NCBI GenBank assembly: GCA_946554525.1
Contig: CAMNSE010000011.1
Location: forward strand, 1-44,554
Direction: 5' to 3'
Length of the DNA stretch: 44,554 bases
From: an uncultured Mycoplasma sp.
Lineage (GTDB): Bacteria > Bacillota_I > Bacilli_A > RF39 > UBA660
Of the stretch, positions 1-44,475 are shown piece after piece. Below the pieces are notes generated by a model. It saw only the letters and a program-made list of their open reading frames with translations. It did no database searches and had not been told where the DNA came from. The position numbers and the translations under genes are program-made. The stretch's first letter is position 1. Every line of letters begins with the position of its first letter.

Positions 1-800
1 ATTTCTAAGATACTTTTGATATTTTCATAGTTACTATTCCAAATATTAGAAGTTAGAAGTTGGACAAATTTAGGGTCATCCCACTCTTTCATTTCTAAAA
101 TTCTTTTAATTTCTTCATAATTACTTTTCCAAATAACGGAAGTAAGAAGAGAGGCAAATTTAGGATTGCTCCATTCTTTCATCTGTAATACAATTTTAAT
201 ATTTTCATAGTTACTATTCCAAATAGTAGGAGTTAGAAGTGGGGTAAATTTAGGTTCTTTCCATTCTTCCATCGCTAAAATACTTTTGATATTTTCATAG
301 TTACTAGTCCAAATAGTAGATGTTAGAAGTGGAGTAAATTTAGGGTCTTTCCATTCTTCCATCGCTAAAATTCTTTTAATATCTTCATAATTACTTTGCC
401 AAATATTAGATGTTAAAAGTGGAGCAAATTTAGGATCATCCCACTCTTTCATTTCTAAAACACTTTTAATTTCTTCGTAGTTACTATTCCAAATAGTAGA
501 AGTAAGAAGTGGAGCAAATTTAGGGTCTTTCCATTCTTTCATTTCTAAAATACTTTTAATATCTTCATAGTTACTAGTCCATATATTGGAAGTAAGAAGT
601 GGAGTAAATTTAGGGTCTTTCCATTCTTCCATCTCTAAAATTCTTTTAATATCTTCATAATTACTTTGCCAAATATTAGATGTTAGAAGTGGAGCAAATT
701 TAGGACCATTCCACTCTTCCATTTCTAAGATACTTTTAATATTTTCATAATTACTTTGCCAAATAGAAGAAGTTAGAAGAGGTGCGAATTTGGGTTCTTT
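1..800 (-). repeat. Tandem 90-bp repeats, array A
   Basis: Exact 90-bp periodicity inside paralogue A, 8.9 units from 800 down to the window edge. The in-frame unit begins at the codon before the conserved Pro-Lys-Phe. Units differ by scattered substitutions but never in length. Confidence 0.95.
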
Positions 801-929
801 CCAATATTTTAGAGAAAGAATTGATAGGACCTCTTTATAAGAGCGAGTATATACATAGTCGCAAATTAGTTCTTCTTTGCCAATTTCTTTTAAATATTTA
901 TTTATTTGTATAATTTCATATGGTAGCAT
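1..929 (-). CDS. 30-residue helical-repeat protein, paralogue A (3' end outside window)
   Basis: I do not recognise a named family. The gene starts at ATG 929-927 behind an AAGGAG site and runs off the left edge after 309 codons, so the C-terminus is unseen. A 43-residue N-cap (MLPYEIIQI...) almost identical to that of the next gene is followed by eight full and one cut repeat of exactly 30 residues. Each has the form x-x-P-K-F-x-x-L-L-T-x-x-I-W-x-S-N-Y-E-x-I-K-x-x-L-x-M-x-E-W. The units look like two short helices around an SN turn, giving an all-alpha solenoid of the general kind seen in mTERF or TALE-like proteins; that fold is inference. No signal peptide or membrane segment is visible, so it is probably cytoplasmic. 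Residues 12 and 15 of each unit vary while their neighbours are fixed. Function is unknown; nucleic-acid or protein binding are both possible. Confidence 0.85.
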   Translation of the reverse strand, partial: MLPYEIIQINKYLKEIGKEELICDYVYTRSYKEVLSILSLKYWKEPKFAPLLTSSIWQSNYENIKSILEMEEWNGPKFAPLLTSNIWQSNYEDIKRILEMEEWKDPKFTPLLTSNIWTSNYEDIKSILEMKEWKDPKFAPLLTSTIWNSNYEEIKSVLEMKEWDDPKFAPLLTSNIWQSNYEDIKRILAMEEWKDPKFTPLLTSTIWTSNYENIKSILAMEEWKEPKFTPLLTPTIWNSNYENIKIVLQMKEWSNPKFASLLTSVIWKSNYEEIKRILEMKEWDDPKFVQLLTSNIWNSNYENIKSILE

Positions 930-1035
930 GTTAACAACTCCTTAGTTTTAGATATATTTGGTATAAATTTTTCTTTTTCTTGATGAGTTATTATAGTTGG
1001 AACTCACAAAAAAGTCAAATCATAAAGTTACTACT
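930..1035 (-). repeat. Duplicated leader/promoter block, copy A
   Basis: About 105 bp upstream of paralogue A closely matches 2141-2246 upstream of paralogue B, including RBS, spacer, -10 and -35. The duplication that made the pair therefore included the regulatory region. Confidence 0.85.
990..1018 (-). promoter_or_regulatory. Promoter of repeat paralogue A
   Basis: -35 TTGACT (1018-1013), 17-base spacer, perfect -10 TATAAT (995-990). The leader is about 55 bases long and ends in AAGGAG before ATG 929. It sits downstream of the stop codon of paralogue B, so A has its own start signal. Confidence 0.8.
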
Positions 1036-1060
1036 TTCTGATTTTCTTTTTATAATATGC

Positions 1061-2140
1061 TTATCTTTGCACGCTTCTTTCTTCACCAATTAAAATTTCT
1101 CTTTGAACTAATTCTTTTAAATTAACACCATATTTTTTATGTAATGTTGAAGGCGAATAGTTAAAAATAGAATTTAATTTTCCGTCAACTATTAAATCAA
1201 GTTGGTTATCATTTATAAAGCGTATTAAAGCTTTTATTTGAATAACACTTCTTCTAAGGTGTGATGTCGTAATATATTGTTTTAGTCCAATACTTGTCAT
1301 ATATTCTATTCCTTCTTTAATTCTAGAAATAGAAATGCTCCAAATACTTGATGTTAATAAATGGATTAGCTCTGGATCATCCCATTCTTTCATTTGTAAA
1401 ATACTTTTAACACCTTCATAATTACTTGTCCAAATAGTAGAAGTAAGGAGAGAAGCAAATTTGGGATCATCCCATTCTTCCATTTCTAAGATGCTTTTGA
1501 TAGCTTCATAGTTACTATTCCAAATATTAGAAGTAAGAAGTGGAATAAATTTAGGATCGTCCCATTCTTTCATTCCTAAAACTCTTTTAATCTCTTCATA
1601 ATTACTATGCCATATATTACAAGTAAGAAGTGGAATAAATTTAGGATCGTCCCATTCTTTCATTCCTAAAACTCTTTTAATCTCTTCATAATTGCTATGC
1701 CAAATAGTAGAAGTAAGAAGTGGAGCAAATTTAGGGTCATTCCATTCTTTCATTCCTAAAACTCTTTTAATCTCTTCATAGTTACGATGCCAAATAGTAG
1801 AAGTAAGAAGTGGAGCAAATTTAGGGTCATTCCATTCTTTCATTCCTAAAACTCTTTTAATCTCTTCATAATTACTATGCCATATATTACAAGTAAGAAG
1901 AATGATGAATTTAGGGTCGCCCCATTCTTTCATTTGTAAAATGTTTTTAACATCTTCATAATTGCTATTCCAAATAGTAGAGGTAAGAAGAGGAGCAAAT
2001 TTAGGATCATCCCAACGTTTTAGGGAAAGAGTTAATAGAACATCTTTATAGGAACGGGTATAAAGAGCCTCACAAATTAAGTATTTTTTTCCAATTTCTT
2101 TTAAATAATTTCTTATTTGTATAATTTCATATGGTAACAT
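1061..2140 (-). CDS. 30-residue helical-repeat protein, paralogue B
   Basis: Complete 359-residue paralogue of the preceding gene. Residues 1-43 are the N-cap. Residues 44-253 are seven exact 30-residue repeats. An eighth, diverging unit follows (about 254-281, beginning DDPELIHLLTSSIW). A C-terminal domain (about 282-359) ends in KKYGVNLKELVQ. Two stretches of that domain (ITTSHLRRS... and LNSIFNYSP...) can be laid over the repeat core, so the whole protein may be one solenoid of about 11 units; this is inference. Positions 12/15 of units 1-8 read T/N, N/H, T/H, T/H, N/H, N/N, T/T, S/S. No signal peptide, membrane segment or catalytic motif is seen, and it is probably cytoplasmic. It starts at ATG 2140 behind AAGGGTG and has its own consensus promoter. 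The fold could be mTERF-like, TALE-like or another alpha-solenoid; the function is unknown. Confidence 0.85.
   Translation of the reverse strand: MLPYEIIQIRNYLKEIGKKYLICEALYTRSYKDVLLTLSLKRWDDPKFAPLLTSTIWNSNYEDVKNILQMKEWGDPKFIILLTCNIWHSNYEEIKRVLGMKEWNDPKFAPLLTSTIWHRNYEEIKRVLGMKEWNDPKFAPLLTSTIWHSNYEEIKRVLGMKEWDDPKFIPLLTCNIWHSNYEEIKRVLGMKEWDDPKFIPLLTSNIWNSNYEAIKSILEMEEWDDPKFASLLTSTIWTSNYEGVKSILQMKEWDDPELIHLLTSSIWSISISRIKEGIEYMTSIGLKQYITTSHLRRSVIQIKALIRFINDNQLDLIVDGKLNSIFNYSPSTLHKKYGVNLKELVQREILIGEERSVQR
1382..2011 (-). repeat. Tandem 90-bp repeats, array B
   Basis: Seven 90-bp units (630 bp) within paralogue B. Several neighbouring units are nearly identical: units 3 and 4 differ at one residue, and units 2 and 5 share the C-N-I-W-H variant. 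This suggests recent unit duplication or gene conversion. Confidence 0.95.
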
Positions 2141-2246
2141 ATTAACACACCCTTAGTTTTAGAGATATTCACTATAAATTTTTCTTTTTCTTGATGAGTT
2201 ATTATAGTGGGAAATTCTAAAAATGTCAAATTATAAAGTTACTACT
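2141..2246 (-). repeat. Duplicated leader/promoter block, copy B
   Basis: Counterpart of 930-1035. Both contain the same poly-pyrimidine leader segment and end upstream with the same TAAAGTTACTAC-type sequence on the plus strand. Confidence 0.85.
2201..2229 (-). promoter_or_regulatory. Consensus promoter of repeat paralogue B
   Basis: -35 TTGACA (2229-2224), 17-base spacer, -10 TATAAT (2206-2201). Both hexamers match the housekeeping sigma consensus perfectly, which predicts strong constitutive transcription unless repressed. Confidence 0.85.
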
Positions 2247-14347: not shown

Positions 14348-15199
14348 TTATTTGTGTTCAATTTCTTTTTTATCGATATATTCATAGTTAAGTTTATTTT
14401 CTTTTGTTATAACAGATTCACCTAGATTTTTCTCTATTTCATCTCTTGCAACTTTAGCAACATGGCCGCCCATTCTAGCAATTTTTTTATTTTGCTCTAA
14501 TCCTTGTGGCTTATGTTTACTTGCAAGTCTTTTAGTTGTTTCTTCTGATAAATCTGTTAATATTACTTCCATACTATCCATGTTATCTCGTAGTGACTCT
14601 TTTCGGATTCCTTTAAACTCTTTATATTCCTTTGCTGTCATGCCAGACCAAGTTTTATATATTTCGTTTGTTAGAATAGCATATTCTTTTTCATCATAAA
14701 TTCCACATTCTAACCAAGTGTCAGTTAATTCCTTTCTGTCTTGAATGCCTCTCATTCTTTTGGCTATCCATTTTTCATCATAACCTTTTAAACGGTATAA
14801 GTCTATGGCTCTTTGAACTGCTAGTGAAGGATCAAATGTTTCATCTATTCTTTCACTTCCAAGCTTAGCTAACCATTGTTTAATAGGCTCTGCATTCTTA
14901 CTTGGTATTGATTCGATTATTCTAAACATTCCTTCAATATCCACAACATCAGTCATACGATATTTACCGTCATTGGCTTTAAGTTTCAAAGCGTTACAAT
15001 TTGTAACGGTTTCATTTCCCTCGTCTTTAAGTCTTTTTTTAAGTACTCTCCAATAAGTTTGAGGATTATTACTCTCAGAAATAACACCTACAATATCCAC
15101 CACACTAATATAATACTTTTCCTCTTTGGTATCCCAAACCGTTCTAATTGTTTCATTATTAAATATTTTATTTACTATTTGCATTTTATCTTGATTCAT
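14348..15199 (-). CDS. Bro-N domain protein, DinD/antirepressor-like
   Basis: Complete 283-residue protein. The N-terminal ~110 residues match the Bro-N pattern (IRTVWDTKEEKYYISVVDIV ... PQTYWRVLKKRL ... DGKYRMTDVVDIEGMFRII), found in phage antirepressors and in E. coli DinD. The C-terminal part is rich in charged helices (WIAKRMRGIQDRKELTDTW, SGMTAKEYKEFKG, NKKIARMGGHVAK), as in DinD-like proteins. It probably binds DNA or an SOS-related partner. The start has GGAGGG and a strong promoter containing a palindrome that could be an operator. No phage genes surround it, so it is an orphan, perhaps a remnant of an element or a domesticated regulator. Confidence 0.8.
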   Translation of the reverse strand: MNQDKMQIVNKIFNNETIRTVWDTKEEKYYISVVDIVGVISESNNPQTYWRVLKKRLKDEGNETVTNCNALKLKANDGKYRMTDVVDIEGMFRIIESIPSKNAEPIKQWLAKLGSERIDETFDPSLAVQRAIDLYRLKGYDEKWIAKRMRGIQDRKELTDTWLECGIYDEKEYAILTNEIYKTWSGMTAKEYKEFKGIRKESLRDNMDSMEVILTDLSEETTKRLASKHKPQGLEQNKKIARMGGHVAKVARDEIEKNLGESVITKENKLNYEYIDKKEIEHK

Positions 15200-36650: not shown

Positions 36651-36671
36651 AAAATCAATTAGTTTGATTTT
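36651..36671 (-). terminator. Terminator of the Cys-rich protein gene
   Basis: AAAATCAA / TTGATTTT stem with a five-base loop containing the stop codon; minus-strand tail GTTTTTTAA. Confidence 0.75.
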
Positions 36672-37216
36672 GCTTTTTTCTTTTTTACTACCATTCTTAT
36701 TATTGGAATTGCTAGTATAAGTCCTATAACTCCAACCGCACCGGTACTATCATTATCATCTGTTTTTCCTTTTAACTCTGCACTTGCTTTAACAGCAGCT
36801 ACAGTTGTTTCCTTATATTTACAACTACCATCATTAACTGTAGCTTTAGAATTGTAATTTTGAGCTTTTTTATCTGTACAGCCTTCTACATCATATTCAC
36901 AGGAATTATCTGATTTTTCAGCTTTTGGATTATAGTTTTTTGCTTTTTTATCCATACACCCATAAACATAGTAGACACATGAATTATTGCTTCTATTGGC
37001 ATTAGCATTATAATTTTTAGCTTTAGGATCTGTACAACCATAAACGACGGGTGGAGTGCATGTACAAGATGGGCTAAGCGTACCATCATTACAAACAGTC
37101 CTTCCAGAAGTTGAACATCCCGATACCCCACCATGATGAGAACAGCACCCTCTTTTAGCAAACACATTTGGTATACAAGCAATAAATATCGCCAATATTA
37201 AAATAATTTTTTTCAT
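36659..37216 (-). CDS. Cys-rich repeat surface protein (YHYH-like plus GCTDxxAxNY repeats)
   Basis: A 185-residue membrane-anchored extracellular protein. Residues 1-20 are a signal peptide. Residues about 22-56 (KRGCCSHHGGVSGC ... NDGTLSPSCTC) look like the short YHYH-type Cys/His motif seen in Firmicutes surface proteins. Three 26-residue repeats follow from about residue 60, each of the form GC-(T/M)-D-x-K-A-x-NYN-x(9)-SC-x-Y with paired cysteines. Such GCTDP-A-NY-DGSC repeats are best known from secreted proteins of marine and Bacteroidetes bacteria. A C-terminal membrane helix (about 153-175) ends in KKKKAK. ATG 37216 follows GGAG; the frame also opens at TTG 37225. Function unknown; the cysteines suggest disulphides outside the cell. 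Confidence 0.75.
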   Translation of the reverse strand: MKKIILILAIFIACIPNVFAKRGCCSHHGGVSGCSTSGRTVCNDGTLSPSCTCTPPVVYGCTDPKAKNYNANANRSNNSCVYYVYGCMDKKAKNYNPKAEKSDNSCEYDVEGCTDKKAQNYNSKATVNDGSCKYKETTVAAVKASAELKGKTDDNDSTGAVGVIGLILAIPIIRMVVKKKKAKSN

Positions 37217-37297
37217 AAATTTCAAACTCCATTTAATGCTATTTTAACAAAATCAATATAAATTGTCCATTATTATCGACATTTTTTCACAAATAAA

Positions 37298-37317: not shown

Positions 37318-38010
37318 TTATAACACTTCTTCGATATATAAATCAACTTCGTCAAAAAACTGATGCACTGTTGTACAGCTAAGTGATTTAGCTGGGGTTT
37401 TACCTTTGCATTCGTCCACGCGCCTTTTAGCATTTTTTCTAGCAAGTTCTAGTGACCCATAACTACATAGTTTATCAAAAATTTCTTTATCATTTTTATG
37501 ATACTCGTATTTTTGCCCTTTATCTTTAAAAAATTGATTTATTTTATCTTCATACTCATTTCTTGATAATGCTGAATCTATATAATTAAAGTGTAATAAA
37601 AACCAAAATTCAATTGCTTCATTTGACCATAGCGGAATAAATCCGTTATTTTTGCACATTGTAACTGCATCATTAAATGCTGAATCACTAAAGTCATCTT
37701 TATCAAACACCACAAATATTTTTCCAAAATATACGGTTCTTTTATTATATTTATCTACAATTGCTTGCAAATCTTCAGCTGTTTTTACTAATGATTTTGT
37801 GTTTCTTCCTTCGCCTTTTATTGTTGCTTTAATTTTCTTTTCATCAGGTAATGTTTCGTTTATCTTTCTAATGGCCATTTCAAAATAATTTACTTCGGTT
37901 TCCTCGCCTTCACACACTATTAACCACTTACTTGGCTTTTGAGAAATTAATTTGCTTCTTCTTTCTTCCCTCTCTTTATTCCTTTTTAACCTAAATTCAT
38001 CGTGTCCCAT
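37318..38010 (-). CDS. rloB: RloB-like TOPRIM protein
   Basis: A 230-residue protein matching the RloB/AbiLii group. It has IVCEGEETEVNYF (TOPRIM-type conserved Glu near residue 34), FVVFDKDDFSDSAFND (the DxD pair near 103) and SNEAIEFWFLLHF. TOPRIM domains bind magnesium and cut or handle nucleic acid. The gene lies three bases after the ATPase gene and ends at a terminator, making a two-gene operon. Such ATPase-TOPRIM pairs act in phage abortive infection (AbiL) or accompany restriction loci (RloA/B). The PARIS system has a similar plan but another TOPRIM family. Here no restriction genes are adjacent. Confidence 0.85.
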   Translation of the reverse strand: MGHDEFRLKRNKEREERRSKLISQKPSKWLIVCEGEETEVNYFEMAIRKINETLPDEKKIKATIKGEGRNTKSLVKTAEDLQAIVDKYNKRTVYFGKIFVVFDKDDFSDSAFNDAVTMCKNNGFIPLWSNEAIEFWFLLHFNYIDSALSRNEYEDKINQFFKDKGQKYEYHKNDKEIFDKLCSYGSLELARKNAKRRVDECKGKTPAKSLSCTTVHQFFDEVDLYIEEVL

Positions 38011-38013
38011 AAT

Positions 38014-39216
38014 CTATTCCTCTTCATTCAAAAATGGAATAGCTCCAAACTGGCCTGAAAGATATTTCTTTTCATAATTTGCATCTGCTCTCAAGTTTTT
38101 AAAATCTGCTAATGAATACAAATTTGAAACTCCATCTAAATCTTTTTCCACTAGATAAATTTGATCTCTTCTAGCCTCAGCACTATTAAAAATTAATGTA
38201 CTGTGTGTTGTGAAAATTAATTGAGCTCCCTTTTTATTTGTTTTTGAATCCATATACATTTTAAATATCTTTCTAAAAAGCAGTGGATGAAGTTTAGTAT
38301 CAAGTTCATCTACACACAAAATATTTCCCGTTTCTAAACTTAAAATTACGTGGGGTACAATATTAAAAATTTTTTTCGTTCCATTAGATTCTAACTCTAA
38401 AGGCAGTTTTACTATTTTTTTTGTATCAATATTTTTATGAACACCACTAATTCTATATTTTACATTATCATTTTCATCTTTGTATGGATCAACCACTATA
38501 CCTTTTAGACATGGGTCAAACTCATTAATTATTTTGGAAAACATATTATGCATTTTCTCATCTTCTAATATTGTTATTGATGTATCAGGTTTAAATTCTT
38601 CTGTTCTAATGGAAATATTCATTAAGTCTGAATATAAATCTCTTATTTCTCCTTCGTTTTCCTTTGTCGCCAAAACACTTAAGACTAACAACTTGTCAGC
38701 ATTAATTTCTTTTTGATATAAGTTCCATACATTTTCGTATTTTTTGTATTTTGCTTCAAAATAAATATCCTTAAAATTTTGTCTTTCAAAAATTAAATGA
38801 TTTTTTGCTCTACTATTTTTACTAAAAGCTTTTTTATATAACCATTCTTCCTCGAACCCATTTTTAGCAACAGTAAAACCATATCGATATTCAAAATCAT
38901 GTAAGCATACGGTTATCTCAAATTCAGATGGTTTATCCTTACTATCTTTATCAAAATAAAATGGAAAGGTGCCAATTTCCTTATTCACATCAAAAAATAA
39001 ATTTTTTTTAATTAAATTTTTCATATATGATAGTGCTTCAAAAATCGTTGATTTTCCAGCTGCGTTTGCTCCATGAATAGCTATTACTGGAAGAATATTA
39101 TTTTTGTTCACTTCTATTAAATCTTCATTATGTCTTTTTTCCGCTGTTGCTGTTAAATCAAGAACTCCTTCATTTTTAAAACTTTTAAAGTTTTTAAATC
39201 TAAATTGAATAAGCAT
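38014..39216 (-). CDS. rloA: RloA/AbiLi-like AAA ATPase
   Basis: A 400-residue ABC/SMC-like ATPase of the AAA_15/AAA_21 type. The N-terminal FRFKNFKSFKNEGVLDLTA strand precedes the Walker A IHGANAAGKST (about 48-58). A long middle insertion follows. The C-terminal part has LELESNGTKKIFNIVP (signature-like), ILCVDELDTKLHPLL (Walker B with catalytic Glu) and QLIFTTHST (switch His). It likely senses infection and controls the TOPRIM partner encoded directly downstream. ATG 39216 follows GGGGTG and a good promoter. Confidence 0.88.
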   Translation of the reverse strand: MLIQFRFKNFKSFKNEGVLDLTATAEKRHNEDLIEVNKNNILPVIAIHGANAAGKSTIFEALSYMKNLIKKNLFFDVNKEIGTFPFYFDKDSKDKPSEFEITVCLHDFEYRYGFTVAKNGFEEEWLYKKAFSKNSRAKNHLIFERQNFKDIYFEAKYKKYENVWNLYQKEINADKLLVLSVLATKENEGEIRDLYSDLMNISIRTEEFKPDTSITILEDEKMHNMFSKIINEFDPCLKGIVVDPYKDENDNVKYRISGVHKNIDTKKIVKLPLELESNGTKKIFNIVPHVILSLETGNILCVDELDTKLHPLLFRKIFKMYMDSKTNKKGAQLIFTTHSTLIFNSAEARRDQIYLVEKDLDGVSNLYSLADFKNLRADANYEKKYLSGQFGAIPFLNEEE

Positions 39217-43368: not shown

Positions 43369-44475
43369 TTATTCTATTTTCTGATTTATCTCATAGCTTG
43401 TAATTTTTTTATCCATAGTTAAATATTTATTATGGCTGATAATTCTTAGCTTTGGGTTTTCAAAATCAAAAATATAATAAATAAAAGTATTTTTATTATT
43501 TTTTAAAGTTTCATCTTCTTTAGCAGATATATTAAACCTCATTTTTGTTAAAGACTTACTTTTAGTAGATTTTACTTCAATTAATATTTCATTACCTTGT
43601 TCATTATAGCTTTTTATATCATAGCCAGCATTTTCATTTATTAAATAAGTTTTTTCTATTTTCTTTTGTAATTCCGGAAAATTATTTAATTTGTTTTTTT
43701 CATAATTGTAGACTAGCTCTTGGCCTTTATCACCATTTTCTATTTTTATTTTTTCTATTTTTATATAGTCTTTGGGCTTGCTAGGCTTGTTTTGCGCCCT
43801 TTTAGGAATAATAGCTTTACTATTTTGTTCTTCAAGCAATTTTGGAATTTTTCCTTGTTCTCTCAAACTAATATTACAGTCATTATAAAGCTCTTGATAG
43901 GTTCTAAATTTTGGATGCTGATAAACCTCTCCCGTTTCATATAAATAAAGGATATTTGACTCTTCAATTCTTTTTATTAAACTTTCAAAAAACATTGTGC
44001 CATAGTATCCTAAAAAATAGTTGTTTTTTAATATTTTTCTATCAACTTGCTTATTTTTAATTGCTTCATAAAATCTTTTTAACATAACTCCTGATAATGG
44101 CATAACATATTTTTGTCCTTTTAAATTATTTTCTTCAATTATTTTTTGGTGTTCAATTTCTTCTTCTACATTAAATAGTTCTTTATAAATTAAAGAAGAA
44201 TAGTCATGAACAAATCTTTTGCCATTTTCTTTAGCTTTTTCAAGGTTAATAATGCAAAAATTACTATATAAAATCTTATCGCTTAAATTTAAAAAAATTT
44301 GTTCATAAAATAAATAATCATCTATGTACTCATTAATATTAGGAATATATTTTTTTCTAATTTTTTTAATTTCATTTAAAGATAAATCATATAAATCTGA
44401 TAAATCATTGTTTGTTATTTTTTCTTTTATAATTAGCTGGCGCCAAGCATTTAATGTTAAGTCTTCAATATTCAT
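43369..44475 (-). CDS. DUF3883-domain protein, PD-(D/E)xK nuclease-like
   Basis: A 368-residue protein. The C-terminal third (about 245-350) matches the DUF3883 pattern: GDKGQELVYNYEKNKL, then NAGYDIKSYNEQGNEILIEVKST, where D...E-V-K gives the PD-(D/E)xK nuclease core, and FNISAKEDETL. The N-terminal ~200 residues are helical, without a recognised domain (LTLNAWRQLIIKEKITNNDL, possibly DNA-binding). DUF3883 is often found in restriction and phage-defence genes. AAGGA lies before ATG 44475. It is separated from the neighbouring two-gene unit by 100 bases, so whether they form one island is uncertain. Confidence 0.7.
   Translation of the reverse strand: MNIEDLTLNAWRQLIIKEKITNNDLSDLYDLSLNEIKKIRKKYIPNINEYIDDYLFYEQIFLNLSDKILYSNFCIINLEKAKENGKRFVHDYSSLIYKELFNVEEEIEHQKIIEENNLKGQKYVMPLSGVMLKRFYEAIKNKQVDRKILKNNYFLGYYGTMFFESLIKRIEESNILYLYETGEVYQHPKFRTYQELYNDCNISLREQGKIPKLLEEQNSKAIIPKRAQNKPSKPKDYIKIEKIKIENGDKGQELVYNYEKNKLNNFPELQKKIEKTYLINENAGYDIKSYNEQGNEILIEVKSTKSKSLTKMRFNISAKEDETLKNNKNTFIYYIFDFENPKLRIISHNKYLTMDKKITSYEINQKIE

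Follow-up and report, generated by a model that had tools for sequence, protein, structure and literature searches.

Among the known systems closest to the genes studied here are the pTERF proteins, prokaryotic mTERF-like proteins which were published in 2024 from metagenome genomes of gut Bacillota (Hu et al. 2024, PMC11417379). They are described as tandem units of three helices, 3–11 per protein, that bind double-stranded DNA. By systematic evolution of ligands by exponential enrichment (SELEX), pTERF1, whose source genome is a ruminant-gut 'Clostridia bacterium', was found to bind ACTNNNAGTC with a dissociation constant (Kd) of 1.87 nM, and pTERF2 binds a different motif; mTERF motifs are annotated in pTERF1, and the pTERF homologues in NCBI all come from metagenome-assembled genomes, mostly of Bacillota (PMC11417379). 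Here, we describe a family of array proteins built from 30-residue units, encoded at the left end of a 44,554-nt stretch of DNA from an uncultured Mycoplasma sp. (GCA_946554525.1, contig CAMNSE010000011.1; the whole stretch is called the window below), which forms the start of contig C11 in the 23-contig draft genome (1.13 Mb) of a small-genome gut bacterium. These arrays are, with reasonable probability, sequence-specific double-stranded-DNA-binding proteins. An earlier note, made from the letters of the window alone, had called the family undescribed; the adjective is now doubtful, because pTERF may be the same family.

Results

Two adjacent genes of the window encode arrays of exact 30-residue modules (90 bp) behind a common 43-residue N-terminal cap (N-cap), as the earlier note had proposed. 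The complete copy, gene 2 (1061..2140, (-); 359 residues), was delimited by its open reading frame, unit scoring and a structure model. It carries the N-cap at residues 1–43 (2012..2140, (-)), seven units at residues 44–253 (1382..2011, (-)), each with a hypervariable residue 15 and N, T or S as residue 12, a diverged eighth unit at residues 254–283 (1292..1381, (-)) and a C-terminal domain at about residues 268–359 (1064..1339, (-)). In gene 1 (3..929, (-)), the N-cap (residues 1–43; 801..929, (-)) is identical to that of gene 2 in 32 of 43 residues, counted by eye, and the units begin at residue 44. Its reading frame is cut by the contig start and only the N-terminal 309 residues lie in the window; the remainder is found at the end of contig C8, which overlaps the window start by exactly 55 bp, and once both contigs are joined gene 1 encodes 479 residues with 11 units and a single terminal stop. 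Tandem Repeats Finder gave the two arrays scores of 974 and 790 with a period of 90 bp and 0–1% indels, a periodicity far above chance, and in the wider family the spacing from unit to unit is exactly 30 residues in 346 of 358 cases. The genome contains five array genes, so that there are several paralogues, whose number the note had wished to see. Three stand in tandem at the C8/C11 junction, with 7, 11 and 7 units. The other two, on contig C5, have 11 and 9 units and are 479 and 419 residues long. Four of the five paralogues have in common a block of upstream sequence that contains a consensus promoter, and the fifth directly follows a C5 gene that we take to be prfA. The sigma-70-type promoter-like site of gene 2 (TTGACA-17-TATAAT, 12/12; 2201..2229, (-)) is kept upstream of paralogues, and that of gene 1 (TTGACT-17-TATAAT, 11/12; 990..1018, (-)) lies inside the block. 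Inverted repeats upstream of the array genes were considered as operators and rejected, being imperfect (76–79%) except for one 7-nt pair.

Which residues of the unit vary? Positions 5, 8, 9, 10, 14, 25 and 30 form a core that hardly changes. Residue 15, with a mostly polar alphabet (N, Q, S, H, K, R, T), shows the highest entropy over 404 units (3.41 bits). It ranks first in variability in 18 of 38 proteins, with a median rank of 2, and 95.5% of the 336 well-scoring units have N, T or S as residue 12. The ratio of non-synonymous to synonymous differences (pN/pS) was calculated for near-identical units, that is, unit pairs within one protein with at most 12 of 90 bases different, and the bootstrap was done over proteins because pairs inside one array are not independent. 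Residue 15 reached a pN/pS of 2.62 (2.02–3.03), residue 12 of 1.36 (0.98–1.70) and residue 7 of 1.60 (0.90–2.07); among the nine variable positions tested, residue 15 alone was clearly above 1. This excess indicates that diversifying selection acts on one loop residue per unit, and the idea that variation is concentrated at chosen residues agrees with both the ratio at residue 15 and the N/T/S restriction at residue 12. A strong pairing between residues 12 and 15 of the PPR kind was discarded, since their mutual information was weak only (z 2.8).

The AlphaFold model of the 359-residue window protein is an all-helical solenoid or superhelix (predicted local distance difference test, pLDDT, 94.4; predicted template modelling score, pTM, 0.80), in which the unit has about three to four short helices and residue 15 is placed at the turn between a predicted helix 10–14 or 11–15, which ends in IW, and helix 17–25. 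A relative of 622 residues with 18 scored units was modelled with a pLDDT of 91.7 and a pTM of 0.64. When the window model was compared with the PDB by Foldseek, the best natural proteins were MTERF4, the TAL effector dHax3 and MTERF1, none of them significant. VIA-align of the Foldseek candidates superposed the window model on BurrH with a Z of 13.3 and a root-mean-square deviation of 4.2 over 334 residues, on the TALE 4hpz with a Z of 13.3 over 336 residues and on MTERF1 with a Z of 10.0 over 259 residues, and every row with Z >7 was TALE-like or mTERF. For the 622-residue array, the first 13 Foldseek chains were all TALE or MTERF1, PthXo1 being first (probability 0.99, E 0.025), and its C-terminal half fits MTERF1 with a Z of 11.4 over 266 residues. 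The top TALE matches, at Z 13–14, are within the background of the tool, whose own note states that a best Z of about 13–14 can be common for helical-repeat models. Because the background best Z is around 14 for some helical models, identity with the TALE-like/mTERF fold is likely, and not proven. HEAT, TPR, PPR and PUF proteins are absent among the Foldseek matches listed, which does not exclude such proteins. The regular helical superhelix with one module per unit, likened in the earlier note to programmable binders, is thus what the model predicts, with TAL-effector-like and mTERF proteins as its nearest solved structures.

What do the arrays bind? One answer is single-stranded RNA, read as PPR and PUF proteins do or as MTERF4 binds ribosomal RNA, with transcript stability, translation or rRNA maturation as the regulated process. 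Code residues of PPR repeats have a restricted alphabet, which the N/T/S of residue 12 resembles, and MTERF4 is among the structural matches; in addition, the two C5 copies flank the release-factor gene that we read as prfA, and one of them overlaps the partner gene described below, which is followed by what we read as a prmC-like gene. However, the top structural matches are double-stranded-DNA binders, the unit period is 30 and not 35–36 residues, and the pTERF proteins were shown to bind double-stranded DNA (PMC11417379), all of which makes RNA a quite improbable ligand.

Alternatively, the arrays could be protein-binding scaffolds in which residue 15 adapts to changing protein partners such as phage proteins. 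The complete copies of this genome carry a net charge of −1 to −13, neutral to acidic, as a protein scaffold might; diversifying selection at a single surface position would also be expected for protein recognition, and the conserved partner gene means that protein-protein contacts may matter. Against this, most of the variation falls at a single position in a loop, where polar residues prevail, and the proteins nearest in fold bind nucleic acids and are not of the HEAT, TPR or ankyrin type, so that we regard a scaffold as unlikely.

Sequence searches gave the repeat no name: profile searches found no family for it in Pfam, NCBIfam, PADLOC, PHROG or the PDB sequences, in line with the earlier statement that no named family has this consensus. 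All PDB chains were searched with a profile and with single sequences, and neither a TALE at E≤10 nor any relative was detected. The window genome likewise gave no Pfam mTERF (PF02536) match at E≤10, and that model is not listed for the window proteins or seven relatives. The 35–36-residue profile of PPR and PUF repeats does not describe a period of 30, and only sub-threshold PPR_3 scores occurred in two relatives. Weak Pfam, NCBIfam and PHROG matches (e.g. DUF3734, RPN13_C, SANT_DAMP1_like) were set aside as mostly summed sub-threshold stretches across near-identical units. A phage origin was rejected after no match was found among 50,697 phage records or in IMG/VR, and a known PADLOC defence system because no model fits the window protein.

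The C-terminal domain had been thought to consist of diverged units of the same kind. This is true of residues 254–283 of gene 2, which score 40 where true units score about 70–90, but not of the rest, which is a separate domain also found at the end of unrelated helicases. At the other end of the protein, a faint unit-like stretch (residues 14–43, score 11–17 in two copies) lies inside the N-cap. With a profile built from the last ~80 residues, the domain was found at the end of proteins of three kinds. The first are the 30-residue arrays. The second are arrays whose N-terminal domain differs (e.g. in loci L040 and L024; a profile of L136, L024 and L040 matches ours at 99.9%, E 1.7e-31). The third are HA-array proteins, in which the HA domains either belong to a superfamily 2 (SF2) helicase of the ResIII/DEAD type or stand in a protein that lacks the helicase. 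The C-terminal domain was found in only 2 of 392 genomes sampled across the phylum, both of the same bacterial family as the window genome, to which all 37 positive genomes of an order-wide sample also belong. L123 and L124 each contain two HA-array helicases in tandem and L128 three tandem HA arrays without helicase, and every one of these proteins ends in the domain.

When neighbour genes were clustered, 19 of 47 loci proved to have a gene for a partner of ~95 residues next to the array, and this gene often overlaps the stop codon of the array by 4 bases. When a genome search with the partner profile was compared with the matches of the C-terminal domain, 23 of the 27 best partner matches lay 8–93 bp downstream of a domain match on the same strand, with all three array kinds represented. 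In the window genome the partner is on C5, at L008:5427-5717, in a 4-base overlap with the 479-residue C5 copy. Given the position of the partner directly downstream of the domain, the simplest reading is that this domain is most likely a docking module for it. Distant relatives of the partner end another conserved operon. In L153 (G000:C4:8948-11210) a distant paralogue of 95 aa is the last of three genes, after those for a coiled-coil-like protein and a 272-aa protein, and has a 4-base overlap. The operon lies beside what we take to be a sepF/divIVA-like pair in two genomes; similar operons are found in L156 and, without sepF/divIVA, in L154.

Within the bacterial family of the window genome, 22 of the 291 genomes searched have array matches. 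The 47 loci mentioned above come from a scan of GTDB representative genomes and are all in metagenome-assembled genomes, many of them gut or rumen by name and labelled Bacilli, Erysipelotrichaceae, Tenericutes, Mycoplasma, Clostridia or similar. Their arrays have up to 25 scored units and their tandem clusters up to four genes. Such patchiness could be that of a defence device that recognises invading DNA, fast array turnover being one side of an arms race; the diversifying selection at residue 15, the tandem paralogues with different unit numbers, the C-terminal domain common with a ResIII/DEAD helicase and a defence-like locus elsewhere in the window would suit it. On the other hand, no nuclease or known defence gene recurs beside the module, whose flanks are housekeeping genes, and PADLOC has no model for the array, so we think that a defence role is rather improbable.

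Elsewhere in the window, an AAA_21 ATPase and an RloB-like protein (37318-39216, (-)) match the AbiL abortive-infection pair of PADLOC (E 1e-84 and 2e-26), a NOV_C (NO VEIN C-terminal) domain protein (43369-44475, (-)) is similar to the candidate defence proteins PDC-S36 and PD-T4-1, and a protein with a BRO-family N-terminal domain (14348-15199, (-)), isolated among envelope-type genes, matches the PADLOC candidate PDC-S13 (E 1e-112). In a small secreted-looking protein without Pfam match (36659-37225, (-)), a Cys/Asp-rich unit of 26 residues (78 bp) is present 2.6 times, and a transmembrane-like segment lies at the C-terminus.

Discussion

A model of how these arrays might work follows from the predicted fold. 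The superhelix would wrap double-stranded DNA as TAL-effector-like proteins and mTERF1 do. In each unit a short helix (TS[TNS]IW) would be followed by a loop from residue 15, by a second helix (YEDVKNIL) and by a further short helical turn or two. With the help of residue 12, residue 15 would recognise roughly one base pair for each unit. The superhelix would end in the C-terminal domain, which would dock, most likely, the ~95-residue protein encoded immediately downstream. The DNA-bound complex could then serve as a block or a recruiter at specific sites, for instance as a transcription roadblock or regulator. By analogy, DNA binding is favoured by pTERF, which binds DNA specifically with a Kd of 1.87 nM and comes from the same kind of genome (PMC11417379).

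Several observations weigh against this reading. The neutral to acidic charge of the proteins is atypical of nucleic-acid binders and is a main weakness. In sequence, no TALE or mTERF is matched significantly; the Foldseek E values also fall short of significance, at 0.17 for the window model with its best natural match and at 0.025 for the long array, and Z values up to about 13–14 can be common among helical repeats. Moreover, the C8/C11 cluster has no adjacent partner, and a single copy of this genome, on C5, has one.

More tentatively, and in our view less likely than not, the arrays might form a plug-in targeting system of one gut Bacillota family, in which interchangeable sequence-reading arrays (30-residue TALE/mTERF-like arrays, or HA arrays on a helicase) share one C-terminal domain and the ~95-residue partner, and in which gain and loss of units together with selection at residue 15 would re-aim the arrays. 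If DNA is bound as predicted, the family offers a compact natural repeat of 90 bp per unit with one strongly selected recognition residue and thus a candidate new programmable DNA-binding scaffold. The common C-terminal domain and the conserved partner give a handle on the cellular role of such arrays, which the pTERF work left open. Likewise, the predicted likeness to both TAL-effector-like proteins and mTERFs bears on a possible kinship of these folds.

Is the family simply pTERF, so that our finding adds members and not a family? We hold this to be a serious possibility, just short of probable; the window family may be pTERF or a sister family, the two being compared by description only. 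Both consist of tandem units of roughly three helices (about three to four short ones in our model) with an ordered predicted structure, both occur in metagenome genomes of gut Bacillota, and the 7–11 units per protein of the window genome are similar to the numbers reported for pTERF (PMC11417379). Origin agrees as well: the genome of one relative (L063), 'Clostridia bacterium isolate RGIG8360' from water buffalo rumen, fits the source description of pTERF1. Nevertheless, pTERF1 has annotated mTERF motifs whereas Pfam mTERF finds no match in the window genome, and relatives of the window family reach 25 units instead of the 3–11 reported. The C-terminal domain, the helicase connection and the partner gene are not mentioned in the pTERF section of that paper (PMC11417379). 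Furthermore, two other groups of tandem-repeat proteins in the same bacteria could be pTERF: PF02536-positive proteins with a 35-residue period, over the cut-off in 18 of 236 genomes, and arrays of 26–30-residue units with another N-terminal domain. Proteins with 35-residue units that exceed the Pfam mTERF cut-off (L134:2776-3834 and L135:3605-7111, with three in tandem in L135) are candidates for pTERF proper. As with defence, identity with pTERF concerns naming and role, and either can be combined with binding of DNA, RNA or protein.

With respect to the mTERF proteins (MTERF1, 3 and 4; PF02536), the window family is likewise a helical repeat of similar length, but its units are exactly tandem and near-identical and PF02536 does not match in the window genome; hhalign against bacterial PF02536-positive proteins aligned the last units and the C-terminal domain only (E about 1e-4, probability 54–63%). 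Like TALE, BurrH, Bat and STAR proteins, the window family is predicted to form a helical superhelix in which each repeat is one module, and it has a hypervariable residue in the inter-helix loop (residue 15) and paralogues that differ in unit number. Unlike those of TALEs, its units are of 30 and not 33–35 residues and lack the TALE sequence pattern, one hypervariable residue (15) and a restricted residue 12 take the place of the adjacent di-residue, no similarity to the TALE chains of the PDB is detectable, and the genes are bacterium-internal. Finally, HA (PF03457) SF2 helicases are built from ~70-residue HA units behind an N-terminal ResIII/DEAD helicase, neither of which the window proteins have, and they share with the window family an array that is closed by the same C-terminal domain and followed by the same ~95-residue partner.
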